Source: a virus | Strand: one strand, 5' to 3' | Virus record (IMG/VR): IMGVR_UViG_3300042507_000846 | Location: 1 to 21,549 of that record | DNA: 21,549 nucleotides | In this document: positions 16,505 to 19,379 of the stretch, piece by piece | Numbering within the stretch: the stretch's first letter is position 1 | Layout: the number at the start of each line of letters is the position of its first letter | Program-made: the position numbers and the translations under genes | Notes under the pieces: model-generated | Databases searched by the model: none | The model's input: the letters and a program-made list of their open reading frames with translations, nothing else | What the model was told of the DNA's origin: nothing

Positions 16505-16671
16505 TCCCCCTGATTACCTTTATTACCTTTTTTCCATTGGTCAGCAAAGTCTGTTAGTAATTGACTATCAAGTTTGTATTTTGATAGGTATTCTCTAAAC
16601 TTGGCTAACCCCCATTCGTACCGCCATTTACACAACTGCCTGACCGCACATTTGTGTTGATGTTCATTCAA
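16495..16671 (-). CDS. 58-aa TTG-initiated protein, overlooked small gene
   Basis: The frame opens at TTG (16671) with AGGA seven bases upstream and closes at TGA (16495-16497). It overlaps the end of the upstream gene and the start of the downstream gene. The product starts MNEHQHKCAVRQLCKW and ends DQWKKGNKGNQGEWH. The Cys/His pattern at the start and the 'DFa.QW..GN.G..GeW' ending are typical of a small phage protein found next to replication genes. Without it the operon would have its only large gap here. Function unknown; the N-terminal H-x-H-x-C might bind metal. Confidence 0.65.
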   Translation of the reverse strand: MNEHQHKCAVRQLCKWRYEWGLAKFREYLSKYKLDSQLLTDFADQWKKGNKGNQGEWH

Positions 16672-17038
16672 GTTCCATTCCTAGCTTGTGCATAATCTTT
16701 TTCTTTAGCGTTTCGTAAGTATCGTAGCCATTACCTAAAATACCAAGTTCTTTTGCTTTGGCTTCAATACCTTGTTGGCTAAACATCCATGACCTATCTA
16801 CCCGTTCTTTAGGTGGGGTCATATCCAGTTCATCTTCCCACCGCCCCGCATTTATCCAACTGGCGGGGTAAGGAATAAAGTCAATATGCGTTTTCTTTAT
16901 TTCCCAATGTTTGATGTGGTTTGGCAAGGCTTCCATTGCTTCTCGCTTTTCAAGCTGGGTGAGTTTAGACCAAGCAGATTCAGCTTTTTTCTTAGCCACT
17001 TTTTTAGGCCATACTTCCCAAAATTTCTCAAAGTCCAC
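16664..17038 (-). CDS. Putative replication-associated protein
   Basis: A 124-aa protein. Residues 1-65 contain FEKFWEVWPKKVAKKKAESAWSKL followed by a stretch ending HIDFIPYPASWINAGRWEDE. This 'FW..yPkK..K..A...W.kl ... fiP.PasWln..rWeD' pattern is a recurrent helical module, often found as the C-terminal part of phage replication initiator or helicase-loader-like proteins. Here it stands alone, with a short basic tail (KKKIMHKLGMELE). The start is GTG, with GGGGGA six bases upstream. An accessory role in replication is inferred from the pattern. Confidence 0.65.
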   Translation of the reverse strand: MDFEKFWEVWPKKVAKKKAESAWSKLTQLEKREAMEALPNHIKHWEIKKTHIDFIPYPASWINAGRWEDELDMTPPKERVDRSWMFSQQGIEAKAKELGILGNGYDTYETLKKKIMHKLGMELE

Positions 17039-17457: not shown

Positions 17458-17717
17458 TGCAGCACCCGTGGGCTTGGTGGCGATGGTGGGCTTGGCGGTA
17501 CGGTGTAGCTCGGTGTACCAACCGCCCAACCTTGTGGGCTAACAACTTGATTAGGGTAAATGGTTAGGTTTTGAACCACTTGCCCTTGATTATTGACCAC
17601 TTGTGCTTGGTTTCCTTGTACCTGAACTGTGCCAGTTGTAAAACCTTGCGGATTAGTAATGACATAGGTTTGAGCCATAACGGGTGTGCTAAATAGCAAT
17701 AATAATAGGTATTTCAT
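17454..17717 (-). CDS. Small exported protein with Pro/Ser-rich tail
   Basis: An 87-aa precursor with a clear signal peptide MKYLLLLLFSTPVMA, likely cut after residue 15. The mature part is rich in Gln, Val and Asn (NPQGFTTGTVQVQG, NNQGQVVQNL) and forms short imperfect repeats of 'G.V.vQ.nQ.qVV'. The C-terminus is low-complexity (PPSPPSPPSPR). There is no lipobox Cys, so it is not a lipoprotein. Overlaps the upstream exported-protein gene by four bases. Destination would be periplasm or beyond. Function unknown. Confidence 0.65.
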   Translation of the reverse strand: MKYLLLLLFSTPVMAQTYVITNPQGFTTGTVQVQGNQAQVVNNQGQVVQNLTIYPNQVVSPQGWAVGTPSYTVPPSPPSPPSPRVLQ

Positions 17718-18016
17718 AGACGATTGCCCCGATTAATCAGTTCAAAATTGTTGATTGGGTAGCGTCTTTGTTCGTTACCATCAGGCCATACAGTAATTAC
17801 GGTGTCATCTTCAATACCGTAACAGCCTTCAAATGTATATCCCTTTGCGGTATATGAGTAAGCCCGCTTTAATGGCGAGTAATCTTTTTTATTAACAACG
17901 CACCGCTCGTCAGTCAAAACAATATAACCACCACCAGTATTAGGTGTTCGTGCAATAGCTTCAGCTTGGGCAGTATTCACGCCAAGCGTTAATAAAAATG
18001 CAATTAGTAATTTCAT
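17714..18016 (-). CDS. Small exported protein, first gene of the leftward early operon
   Basis: A 100-aa precursor with signal peptide MKLLIAFLLTLGVNTAQA, likely cut after residue 18. The mature domain has two Cys (about residues 39 and 65), which could form a disulfide, within GGGYIVLTDERCVVN and GYTFEGCYGIEDD, followed by TVWPDGNEQRRYPINNFE. This 'GgyivLTdeRC...aYsYt..G.t.eGCy...W.DG..r.YPi..F' pattern occurs in small phage proteins of unknown function. AAAGGGGGA lies a few bases before the ATG, an unusually strong ribosome site. Periplasmic location is predicted. Confidence 0.7.
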   Translation of the reverse strand: MKLLIAFLLTLGVNTAQAEAIARTPNTGGGYIVLTDERCVVNKKDYSPLKRAYSYTAKGYTFEGCYGIEDDTVITVWPDGNEQRRYPINNFELINRGNRL

Positions 18017-18235
18017 ATTTCCCCCTTTGTAAAACTGTAATTTACTACATTATCAACATTTGTTTATAGGGAGTTTCCCTAATAACTTGTAGGTTAAGTT
18101 TTGGGCAATTTTTTATAACCTATTGGTATGTTTTAGTTACCGTAAAAAAATGTGTAGTTTATGACACATAAATGTGACCTTAAACGGGTTAATGACCTAT
18201 TTATGATTCATTGTTATATATAGATATAACTCTTG
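18017..18235. promoter_or_regulatory. AT-rich regulatory spacer upstream of the exported-protein operon
   Basis: No gene is evident. The stretch contains three inverted repeats of operator type: TAGGGA-GTT-TCCCTA (18067-18081), CACAT-AA-ATGTG (18165-18176) and GTTATAT-ATAG-ATATAAC (18213-18230). It also holds a direct repeat of TGACCT (18175-18180 and 18193-18198). Several TATAAA-like boxes exist on the minus strand but I found no convincing matching -35, so the operon promoter is not placed. An activator-dependent or phage-specific promoter is possible. Confidence 0.4.
18144..18169 (-). terminator. Weak terminator-like hairpin downstream of the structured RNA
   Basis: On the minus strand ATGTGT (18164-18169) pairs with ACACAT (18150-18155) around an 8-base loop and is followed by six further T residues (18144-18149). 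The stem is short and AT-rich, so termination would be inefficient. It is the first T-tailed hairpin after the folded region and could define the 3' end of the RNA. Confidence 0.35.
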
Positions 18236-18556
18236 CCTTTTGGTGAACGGAACCCAGCCATCCTAGATTCCTTCAACTGTTTGCCTTTCGGAGCCACAGA
18301 ACCCGCCAGTCGTTCAAGGAATAGGCACTAGCTTCGCCACCTATTTGTGTGCTGTTACATCCTTTATCCCCCAGTAGCACTTGTATCGCAGTCGCTGGTG
18401 TCGGTTCCCGCCCAACTGTGACCGCAGAAATAGAAAAACCCCATAAGGTTGCTCTAAGTTGAACCCGCTTAAGTAATAAATCGGTAGTATTACCTAAACG
18501 CTCAAAGCAACCCTATAGGGTCTTACCGATTATGAACTAAGCAGGGTTCAATCTGC
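18236..18556 (-). ncRNA. Candidate structured noncoding RNA with a pseudoknot
   Basis: No convincing ORF covers this stretch, yet it is less AT-rich than its flanks and highly self-complementary. On the minus strand, S1 pairs 18538-18551 with 18459-18471 (13 bp, one bulge). Inside it, S2 pairs 18524-18531 with 18479-18486 (8 bp). The S2 loop (18501-18512) pairs 12 bp with 18447-18458, directly abutting S1, which makes an H-type pseudoknot. A 3' domain has stems 18420-18425/18388-18393, 18412-18416/18400-18404, 18376-18380/18349-18353, 18307-18312/18274-18279 with 18316-18322/18267-18273, and a long-range pairing 18403-18408/18249-18254. Several stems need G-U pairs that exist only in minus-strand RNA. 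A sigma70 promoter points into it. It is no class I recognise (not RNase P, tmRNA, 6S or tRNA). The 3' end is uncertain. Confidence 0.6.
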
Positions 18557-18562
18557 CATCAC

Positions 18563-18590
18563 AGTATAACCTAATTTGCTCTTTTGTAAA
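18563..18590 (-). promoter_or_regulatory. Sigma70 promoter for the structured RNA
   Basis: On the minus strand TTTACA (-35, 18585-18590) and TATACT (-10, 18563-18568) are separated by 16 bases; each differs from consensus at one position. The predicted start is near 18556, immediately before the first stem of the folded region. The -35 overlaps the last codons of the DPPY methyltransferase gene. This is the best-scoring promoter by eye in the window. Confidence 0.65.
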
Positions 18591-19149
18591 TACTGATACT
18601 TCTGTCCTTATGTCCTGTGCTACCACGATAAAGAATTGCCCCAACTTCTTTCCATTCAATATTTCGGTAAAAAGGTCGTTGCCAATCAAGCCAAACCACA
18701 TAAGCATTTGGGCTTGTAACTAAATACATTTCCCTAAATACTTGTTTAATATTAAGATTTTGAGCTTTACAACCATACCGAACTTGGTATTCTTTAAGTC
18801 GTTCTTCACCGTATGGCGGGTCAGCCACAATTAAATCGTATTTTTTGCTCAAATGCTTTGATAATTCCCTTGCATCGGCATACATGGTTTGGTCATTTTG
18901 CGGATTTATGTCAACCTTATCGCCTTTTAAATGCGTGTCATCAAGCTGACCAGCGTATAAATGCAAAACATTTTGTGCTTTTGGAAACAAAGCAGCAACT
19001 CTTTTAAGATAGTTGCCCTGATAGCCCCCATAATAATCGTTCGCTTTAGCGTAATTGTTGCCCAAATAAATAGCCCCAGTTACAAGGTTTGATTGGTCAA
19101 TTTGCAAATAACGCCCAAAAACCTTGTTGTAATTATCAATATCAATCAT
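18571..19149 (-). CDS. DPPY-motif adenine/cytosine methyltransferase
   Basis: A 192-aa protein. The catalytic motif is VADPPYGEE with DPPY at 110-113. A motif I-like VLHLYAGQL lies at 61-69, and an acidic residue near 80 (DKVDIN) would contact SAM. The order, SAM motif before catalytic motif, and the small size suggest an amino-methyltransferase acting on DNA (N6-adenine or N4-cytosine), although an RNA-modifying enzyme cannot be excluded. The usual FxGxG is degenerate (LYAGQ). It overlaps the repressor gene by four bases (ATGA), so the two are coexpressed. No cognate endonuclease is adjacent, consistent with an orphan phage enzyme used for protection or regulation. Confidence 0.75.
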   Translation of the reverse strand: MIDIDNYNKVFGRYLQIDQSNLVTGAIYLGNNYAKANDYYGGYQGNYLKRVAALFPKAQNVLHLYAGQLDDTHLKGDKVDINPQNDQTMYADARELSKHLSKKYDLIVADPPYGEERLKEYQVRYGCKAQNLNIKQVFREMYLVTSPNAYVVWLDWQRPFYRNIEWKEVGAILYRGSTGHKDRSISIYKRAN

Positions 19150-19379
19150 CGCAAGTCAGGCCAAATATAGTGCCAAGTATTTGGTAGTAAGTCCTTGCGG
19201 CCTACTAGCCCGTGGCTTTGTTTCTCAATGTCGATTGCCAACATGATGAGCTTATCGGCTGGAATATCGTCATGTACCCACCGATGAACCGCTTGTGTAC
19301 TGACCCCGAATCGTTTGGCTACTTTGGTTACTCCCCCGCATAGCCCAATCATTTGTTTTGTAGTTAATTTAAGTGCCAT
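19146..19379 (-). CDS. Cro/YdaS-like HTH transcriptional regulator
   Basis: A 77-aa DNA-binding protein. The helix-turn-helix lies at about residues 15-36 (GGVTKVAKRFGVSTQAVHRW), followed by DDIPADKLIMLAIDIE and a C-terminal GRKDLLPNTWHYIWPDL. That tail matches the 'v.r.dLrPd.w..iWPeL' end of YdaS/Cro-type proteins. It is divergent from the recombination module across a 98- to 110-base region with palindromes, so it probably represses one or both promoters there. The methyltransferase gene follows with an ATGA overlap. Confidence 0.82.
   Translation of the reverse strand: MALKLTTKQMIGLCGGVTKVAKRFGVSTQAVHRWVHDDIPADKLIMLAIDIEKQSHGLVGRKDLLPNTWHYIWPDLR

Follow-up and report, generated by a model that had tools for sequence, protein, structure and literature searches.

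Transcription attenuators, of the trp and the riboswitch type, have two mutually exclusive RNA folds, one of which is an intrinsic terminator, and lie upstream of what is expressed. The put RNA of phage HK022 acts in cis on the RNA polymerase that is transcribing it, which then resists terminators, and ToxI-type RNAs of type III toxin-antitoxin systems are pseudoknotted phage or plasmid RNAs that are followed by a terminator and another gene. The phage-borne RNAs ROOL and GOLLD are ornate molecules of 600-800 nt with pseudoknots and loop-loop contacts, often near tRNA islands (PMC12286853).

Here, we analyzed an IMG/VR virus record of 21,549 bases (the whole stretch, called the window below), in which a first-pass annotation made from the letters alone had proposed a pseudoknotted non-coding RNA that is driven by a promoter, is read from the minus strand and lies between early phage operons. 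As possible roles it had named modulation of host RNA polymerase or ribosomes, an antisense or decoy function, or packaging of the RNA. Covariation among homologues supports such an RNA, which we found to be built from two modules. In freshwater phages, a promoter and a bistable, terminator-like leader stand before a slot for several unrelated folded non-coding RNAs, and the Rfam family RF02932, which occupies the slot in the window, is one of several RNAs exchanged behind this common switch.

Results

Upstream of the RNA lies a DNA methyltransferase gene (18571..19149, minus strand; phrog_3816, E = 6.7e-32), preceded by a Cro-like repressor gene (19146..19379, minus strand), which is the usual upstream neighbour at leader-type loci. 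Downstream there are AT-rich sequence, a small open frame (17714-18016) without a PHROG match and, further on, a replication-initiation-like gene (16664-17038). The RNA features given below are all on the minus strand. The near-consensus sigma70-type promoter TTTACA-16-TATACT was found where it had been proposed (18563..18590), and transcription would start from it at about 18556-18558. A lone consensus match is unremarkable, with 7 in the region and 8.5 expected by chance; at this position upstream of homologous leaders, however, promoter-like sites are recurrent, with a score of at least 6.5 in 70% (n=44) against 25% of shuffles.

Homologues were gathered by the RF02932 core motif from at least 120 viral contigs and 35 genome contigs (about a dozen of the latter being true members), and more were added by other patterns. 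Reading frames fixed to the core motif were open in only 8, 15 and 0 of 98 homologues, so that none is conserved, in keeping with the earlier view that the stretch lacks a credible ORF; the whole stretch folds better than shuffled sequence (z = -4.2). In the window, ARAGORN detected no tRNA or tmRNA, ROOL and GOLLD gave no match, and RF02932 was the sole Rfam family matched.

A covariance search with cmscan placed the whole model (1-120) of Betaproteobacteria-1 RNA, RF02932, at 18301..18422 (101.3 bits, cut-off 49.4). The multi-hairpin second domain of the first-pass annotation is therefore present as described but belongs to this family and not to a nameless class, while its pseudoknot domain (18427-18557) matched no Rfam family above cut-off. 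Rfam matches of this leader to microRNA families were far below the cut-offs and were rejected as chance. In about 700 bacterial genomes the leader gave one marginal match under strict filters. The single RNA that had been envisaged gave way to a different picture: many homologues carry RF02932 without the leader, therefore the two are separable modules, and a terminator-like stem and U-tract stand between them.

The leader (18427..18557) contains a hairpin, H0 (GCAG/CUGC, 18541..18556, 93% paired), whose loop contains strand A (UUGAACCC, 18551-18544). Strand A also pairs with A' (18466-18459; 99% paired, with changes on both sides at 6/7 pairs), and the 13-bp outer stem proposed earlier was recovered as UUGAACCC-(U)-GCUUA/UUAAGC-GGGUUCAA with one bulged base. 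Inside it, as proposed, lies the 8-bp hairpin D (AAUCGGUA/UACCGAUU, 18531-18524 / 18486-18479), whose loop pairs just 3' of the outer stem. The 12-bp loop pairing described there exists but was incomplete, being part of a 24-bp complement, the terminator stem B/B' (18524-18501 / 18458-18435), which stacks on C/C' (18501-18489 / 18477-18467). The 5' strand of the terminator is 40-75 nt from its 3' strand. In the window TTTTTC directly follows B/B', which gives the stable stem and U-tract of an intrinsic terminator, and the U-tract (TTTTTCTATTTC, 18427..18438) is the junction where RNA bodies are exchanged.

The minimum-energy fold of the leader is H0 plus one long B+C hairpin (-53.4 kcal/mol, z = -7.2), and the fold opposed to this terminator is formed by D and A together. 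C and D are not able to coexist, because linkers of 1-2 nt would need to span a helix, and the two folds, A+D and H0+B+C, are mutually exclusive. The pseudoknot fold of the first-pass annotation is conserved, but only as one of these two conserved folds. Among 15 window-like leaders, 95% of the cells in H0, A, B and C pair, with 65 double changes against 16 in shuffles and a covariation score of 0.414 against 0.192 for shuffled and at most 0.114 for slid structures; for D, a sequence-by-sequence test gave 19.2 with its own partner and 11.8 +/- 0.87 with swapped partners.

For the growing transcript, A+D is the energy minimum from about 18460 to 18448. With the transcript made to the end of A', the energy model gives -33.4 for A+D versus -26.4 for H0+C, and for the full-length leader -53.4 for the terminator fold versus -42.1 for A+D; A+D is thus predicted until the 3' strand of the terminator is made, followed by a flip. 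As in an attenuator, a conserved alternative fold excludes the terminator, since A and D covary and, in the energy model, win before B' is made. Because the alternative folds are conserved, we read the leader as an attenuator-like, conditional terminator that, on this energy model, would gate a structured RNA. A strong stem precedes the U-tract, therefore polymerase could also stop there constitutively, with read-through being no more than leakage.

A covariance model of the leader was scanned over the loci, and contigs were also picked by the leader motif or by a body motif. At loci picked by RF02932 the leader was found only adjoining RF02932, all strong leader matches lay just upstream of an RNA body, and no leader without an adjoining body was found in about 3 Mb of contigs. 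Besides RF02932 there are bodies that we labelled X, Y, Z and V in the present analysis; among the 62 leaders with enough sequence, drawn from metagenomic contigs that are partly redundant, 17 precede RF02932, 17 X, 19 Y and 9 Z, and the bodies begin right after the U-tract. Leaders that are 95-100% identical precede unrelated bodies, and in one Y locus and one Z locus the 130-nt leader is identical letter for letter. When loci were picked by body and those already found via the leader were set aside, the leader was present, among the matches listed, at 44/44 for X, 42/46 for Z and 66/70 for Y (152/160).

Body X is conserved and non-coding, starts GCCACCCGAAACGACAGGGTG and occurs in 61 viral contigs (L261, L264, L309 and others). 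Body Y (CCGTACTCCAAACGA...GGCGTGGAA...) occurs in 82 viral contigs (L262, L277, L287, L317; a variant in L266, L281, L293), and body Z (CCTAGCCCGTTCTCAAGCG...ACGGTAAAGGCTGTA...), with little diversity, in 55 (L265, L279, L299, L318). Neither X, Y and Z nor the remaining bodies match Rfam, and a search of 50,697 phage genomes gave no hit to X, Y or Z. Nested pairs covary in Y, which is therefore a structured RNA; the sequences of X and Z are too uniform for a covariation comparison. For X, Y, Z and V the folding energies do not stand out (most z values are near 0).

Behind a second, GC-rich leader type stand Y-like bodies in 24 cases, RF02932 in 2 and further bodies in 16. One of the further bodies is V (L518, L520, L530, L536, L543), which carries RF02932-like core motifs and shares the direct-repeat layout of RF02932, GGCTCC-R ... 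CACC-R, for example TCGGGGAAT twice in L530. From these motifs V is probably a remote relative of RF02932; cmscan with V did not reach RF02932, therefore the kinship is visible by eye only. Other non-coding bodies, some of them mutually alike, were also seen behind the GC-rich leader (L526, L527, L548, L555, L545; L529, L550, L552; L531; L538; L544). Neither the common leader nor the exchange of bodies behind it had a match in the databases searched.

Rfam draws three hairpins for RF02932. Its consensus helices are present in the window RNA (P1, P2 and P6 by our naming; P6, GCUAGU/ACUGGC, 18332-18327 / 18310-18305, 99% paired), which adds P3, P4, P5 and a 3' repeat domain with P7 and P8, and the conserved RNA is about 190 nt here versus 120 in the Rfam model. 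P3 is a loop-loop contact (CCAG/CUGG, 18398-18395 / 18374-18371, 96-100% paired) and P4 a pseudoknot (AAGGA/UCCUU, 18364-18360 / 18320-18316, 98% paired, both sides changing at each of the five pairs), both absent from the Rfam structure, and P5 (AUAGG/CCUAU, 18344-18340 / 18325-18321, 92% paired) crosses P6. Pairwise covariation (APC-corrected G statistic, 98 non-redundant homologues) picked out these three helices, which Rfam does not draw, at z up to 28. In 83 sequences, 89% of the cells of the RF02932 structure pair, with 731 double-side changes versus 257 in shuffles and a covariation score of 0.524 versus 0.179 for shuffled and at most 0.105 for slid structures. The stems proposed in the first-pass annotation likewise covary among homologues, with compensatory changes far above shuffled and slid controls. 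A literature search found no paper naming RF02932 or Betaproteobacteria-1 RNA.

The 3' repeat domain (18233..18300) consists of P7 (18300-18276), P8 (18271-18249) and a direct repeat, AAAGGCAA, with one copy in the P7 loop (18288-18281) and the other just 3' of P8 (18240-18233). Among RF02932 homologues the same letters vary jointly at two places about 48 nt apart, and in 46% of homologues the two copies have at least 7 nt in common, versus 7% when copies are swapped between homologues. Neither nearby nor elsewhere in the contig did a complement of the repeat exceed about 2 SD, and no complement changing along with the copies was found. The repeat as ribosome-binding site of the next gene was rejected, as this is true in a few loci only. 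Our guess is that the two repeats are equivalent binding sites for one variable partner.

Further downstream in the window, the sequence offers a possible weak terminator below the scan threshold (AUGUGU-N8-ACACAU-U7, 18169-18144), and 18144 is the position where this weak hairpin plus U7 ends. Terminators after RF02932 are not enriched (11/95 versus 14% in controls), and in one clade (L018, L070, L191, L195, L204) an intrinsic terminator is clearly present 60-90 nt beyond the second repeat. In the same clade the terminator is preceded by a C-poor tail rich in UAA, UAG and AGUAA.

Many RF02932 loci have no leader and lie 14-25 nt behind a coding gene (primase, Cro-like). Genes upstream of RF02932 were DNA primases in 22/57 and Cro-like repressors in 12/57, and the downstream genes are mixed, with no shared protein family. 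A nucleotide search, which would miss distant members, found RF02932 in only two named phages, Acidovorax phage AP1 and MW202545, and in both the RNA is downstream of the primase gene; in MW202545, a leader of the second type and six tRNAs stand between primase and RF02932. The six tRNA genes of MW202545 (L158, 5195-5770) are directly upstream of leader and RF02932, and two annotated hypothetical CDS that overlap the RNA are probably spurious. Contigs end unusually often inside RF02932 (L063/L067, L103/L196, L105, L114, L079), as if assemblies broke at a sequence common to co-occurring phages.

RF02932 was not found in plasmids. It was found in 55/349 genomes of one bacterial family (which includes a Caballeronia), with up to four copies, and in 5/301 genomes of another (which includes a Xenophilus). 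The inspected Burkholderiaceae copies stand alone as intergenic genes, each behind a conserved promoter and among diverse neighbours; stand-alone genes with a promoter of their own favour action in trans. In several of the Burkholderiaceae neighbourhoods inspected (L152, L222, L253 and L256), stand-alone RF02932 lies near H-NS-like genes, which may be chance.

Discussion

Both leader folds and the RF02932 body are kept by compensatory change, and the slot holds differing bodies behind near-identical leaders; the controls for covariation were shuffles, swaps and slides and not a tree-based null, and large effects were seen repeatedly, with independent helices. The reading that we put at even chances is a slot for the regulated expression of a structured RNA that can be exchanged, in which the leader switch gates a trans-acting body. 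Transcription would begin at about 18557 and yield a leader with two mutually exclusive folds. As long as synthesis has reached only A', the A+D fold would keep the terminator's 5' strand in a loop; after B' has come out, H0+B+C could form and become the stable fold, giving a 24-bp stem followed by U5 as intrinsic terminator. Whether RNA polymerase halts or continues into the body that occupies the slot (RF02932 in this case) would depend on which fold wins during transcription. No promoter-like site was found in the window scan between the U-tract of the leader and the body, a gap of about 10 nt, therefore the body would be reachable only through the leader. We take the body to be most likely a trans-acting non-coding effector, because stand-alone chromosomal genes exist; it would have a compact pseudoknotted core and would present to a partner a short sequence in two identical copies that are largely single-stranded.

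The positions of the RNA also suit a part played in cis. Leader and body could be elements of an early operon, the body letting the transcribing RNA polymerase pass later terminators, in the manner of HK022 put RNA, and the leader terminator being either the one that is controlled or an insulator against upstream transcription. Cro-like or primase genes precede the RNA and replication or late genes come after it, long runs of genes on the same strand follow it in AP1 and MW202545, few terminators lie directly 3' of it, and leaderless RF02932 closely behind a coding gene fits a cis-acting element. However, the chromosomal RF02932 genes stand alone without a downstream operon, the body comes after the leader terminator and not before it, and in one clade a separate terminator closely follows the RNA; we consider such a role unlikely. 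It is rather improbable, in our estimate, that the leader is a small RNA in its own right, about 125 nt long and ending at an ordinary terminator, with the body made by leakage or from other transcripts, and that the two have no more in common than a recombination hot spot. Promoter, compact fold and terminator do form the complete anatomy of such an RNA, but a leader lacking a body was never met in the roughly 3 Mb of contigs, there is no space for a separate body promoter, and two competing folds are conserved.

Primase, the commonest upstream gene, and the AT-rich sequence that follows the RNA in the window would suit a part of the replication origin that acts as a primer or forms an R-loop, and a pair of identical repeats might enable the RNA to invade the DNA it came from. 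The cumulative GC skew of the complete phages AP1 and MW202545 does not turn at the RNA, in a test that is weak for phages, and the chromosomal copies stand alone, which together make an origin role very improbable. Just as little weight, or slightly less, falls on a structural or assembly role in the manner of ROOL and GOLLD, possibly through multimers made of RNA only: the bodies are phage-borne and pseudoknotted, and the P3 loop-loop contact could also form between molecules, but they are much shorter, and a tRNA cluster right beside the RNA was seen in 1/120 loci (MW202545 only).

Returning to the expression slot with a leader switch, it may, as a tentative extension to which we give about one chance in three, be a general slot for non-coding RNAs in freshwater phages, in which structurally unrelated RNA effectors are swapped as cassettes, each a different inhibitor of the host or of rival phages. 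The analysis places an orphan Rfam family in phages and gives it a full pseudoknotted architecture, and one leader with several interchangeable bodies makes the function of phage structured RNAs testable.

The RNA resembles ROOL and GOLLD in being phage-borne with pseudoknots and loop-loop contacts, and differs in sequence, in length and in having no general link to tRNA islands. With HK022 put and lambda nut it shares the place of an early-operon RNA next to a Cro-type gene; no sequence likeness was noted, and here there are stand-alone chromosomal copies and a position after the terminator. The leader is like ToxI in that a pseudoknotted RNA is followed by a terminator and another gene, whereas the window lacks tandem repeats of the ToxI type, and what comes after the terminator is an RNA gene and not a toxin gene. 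The likeness to attenuators lies in two exclusive folds, one of them a terminator, upstream of the expressed part; no leader peptide or ligand is known here, and attenuators express mRNA whereas this slot would express a non-coding RNA. Protein effectors at defence or counter-defence hot spots are swapped much as RNA cassettes would be here, and if the bodies are effectors against the host or rival phages, the slot would do with swappable RNAs what anti-defence islands do with proteins.
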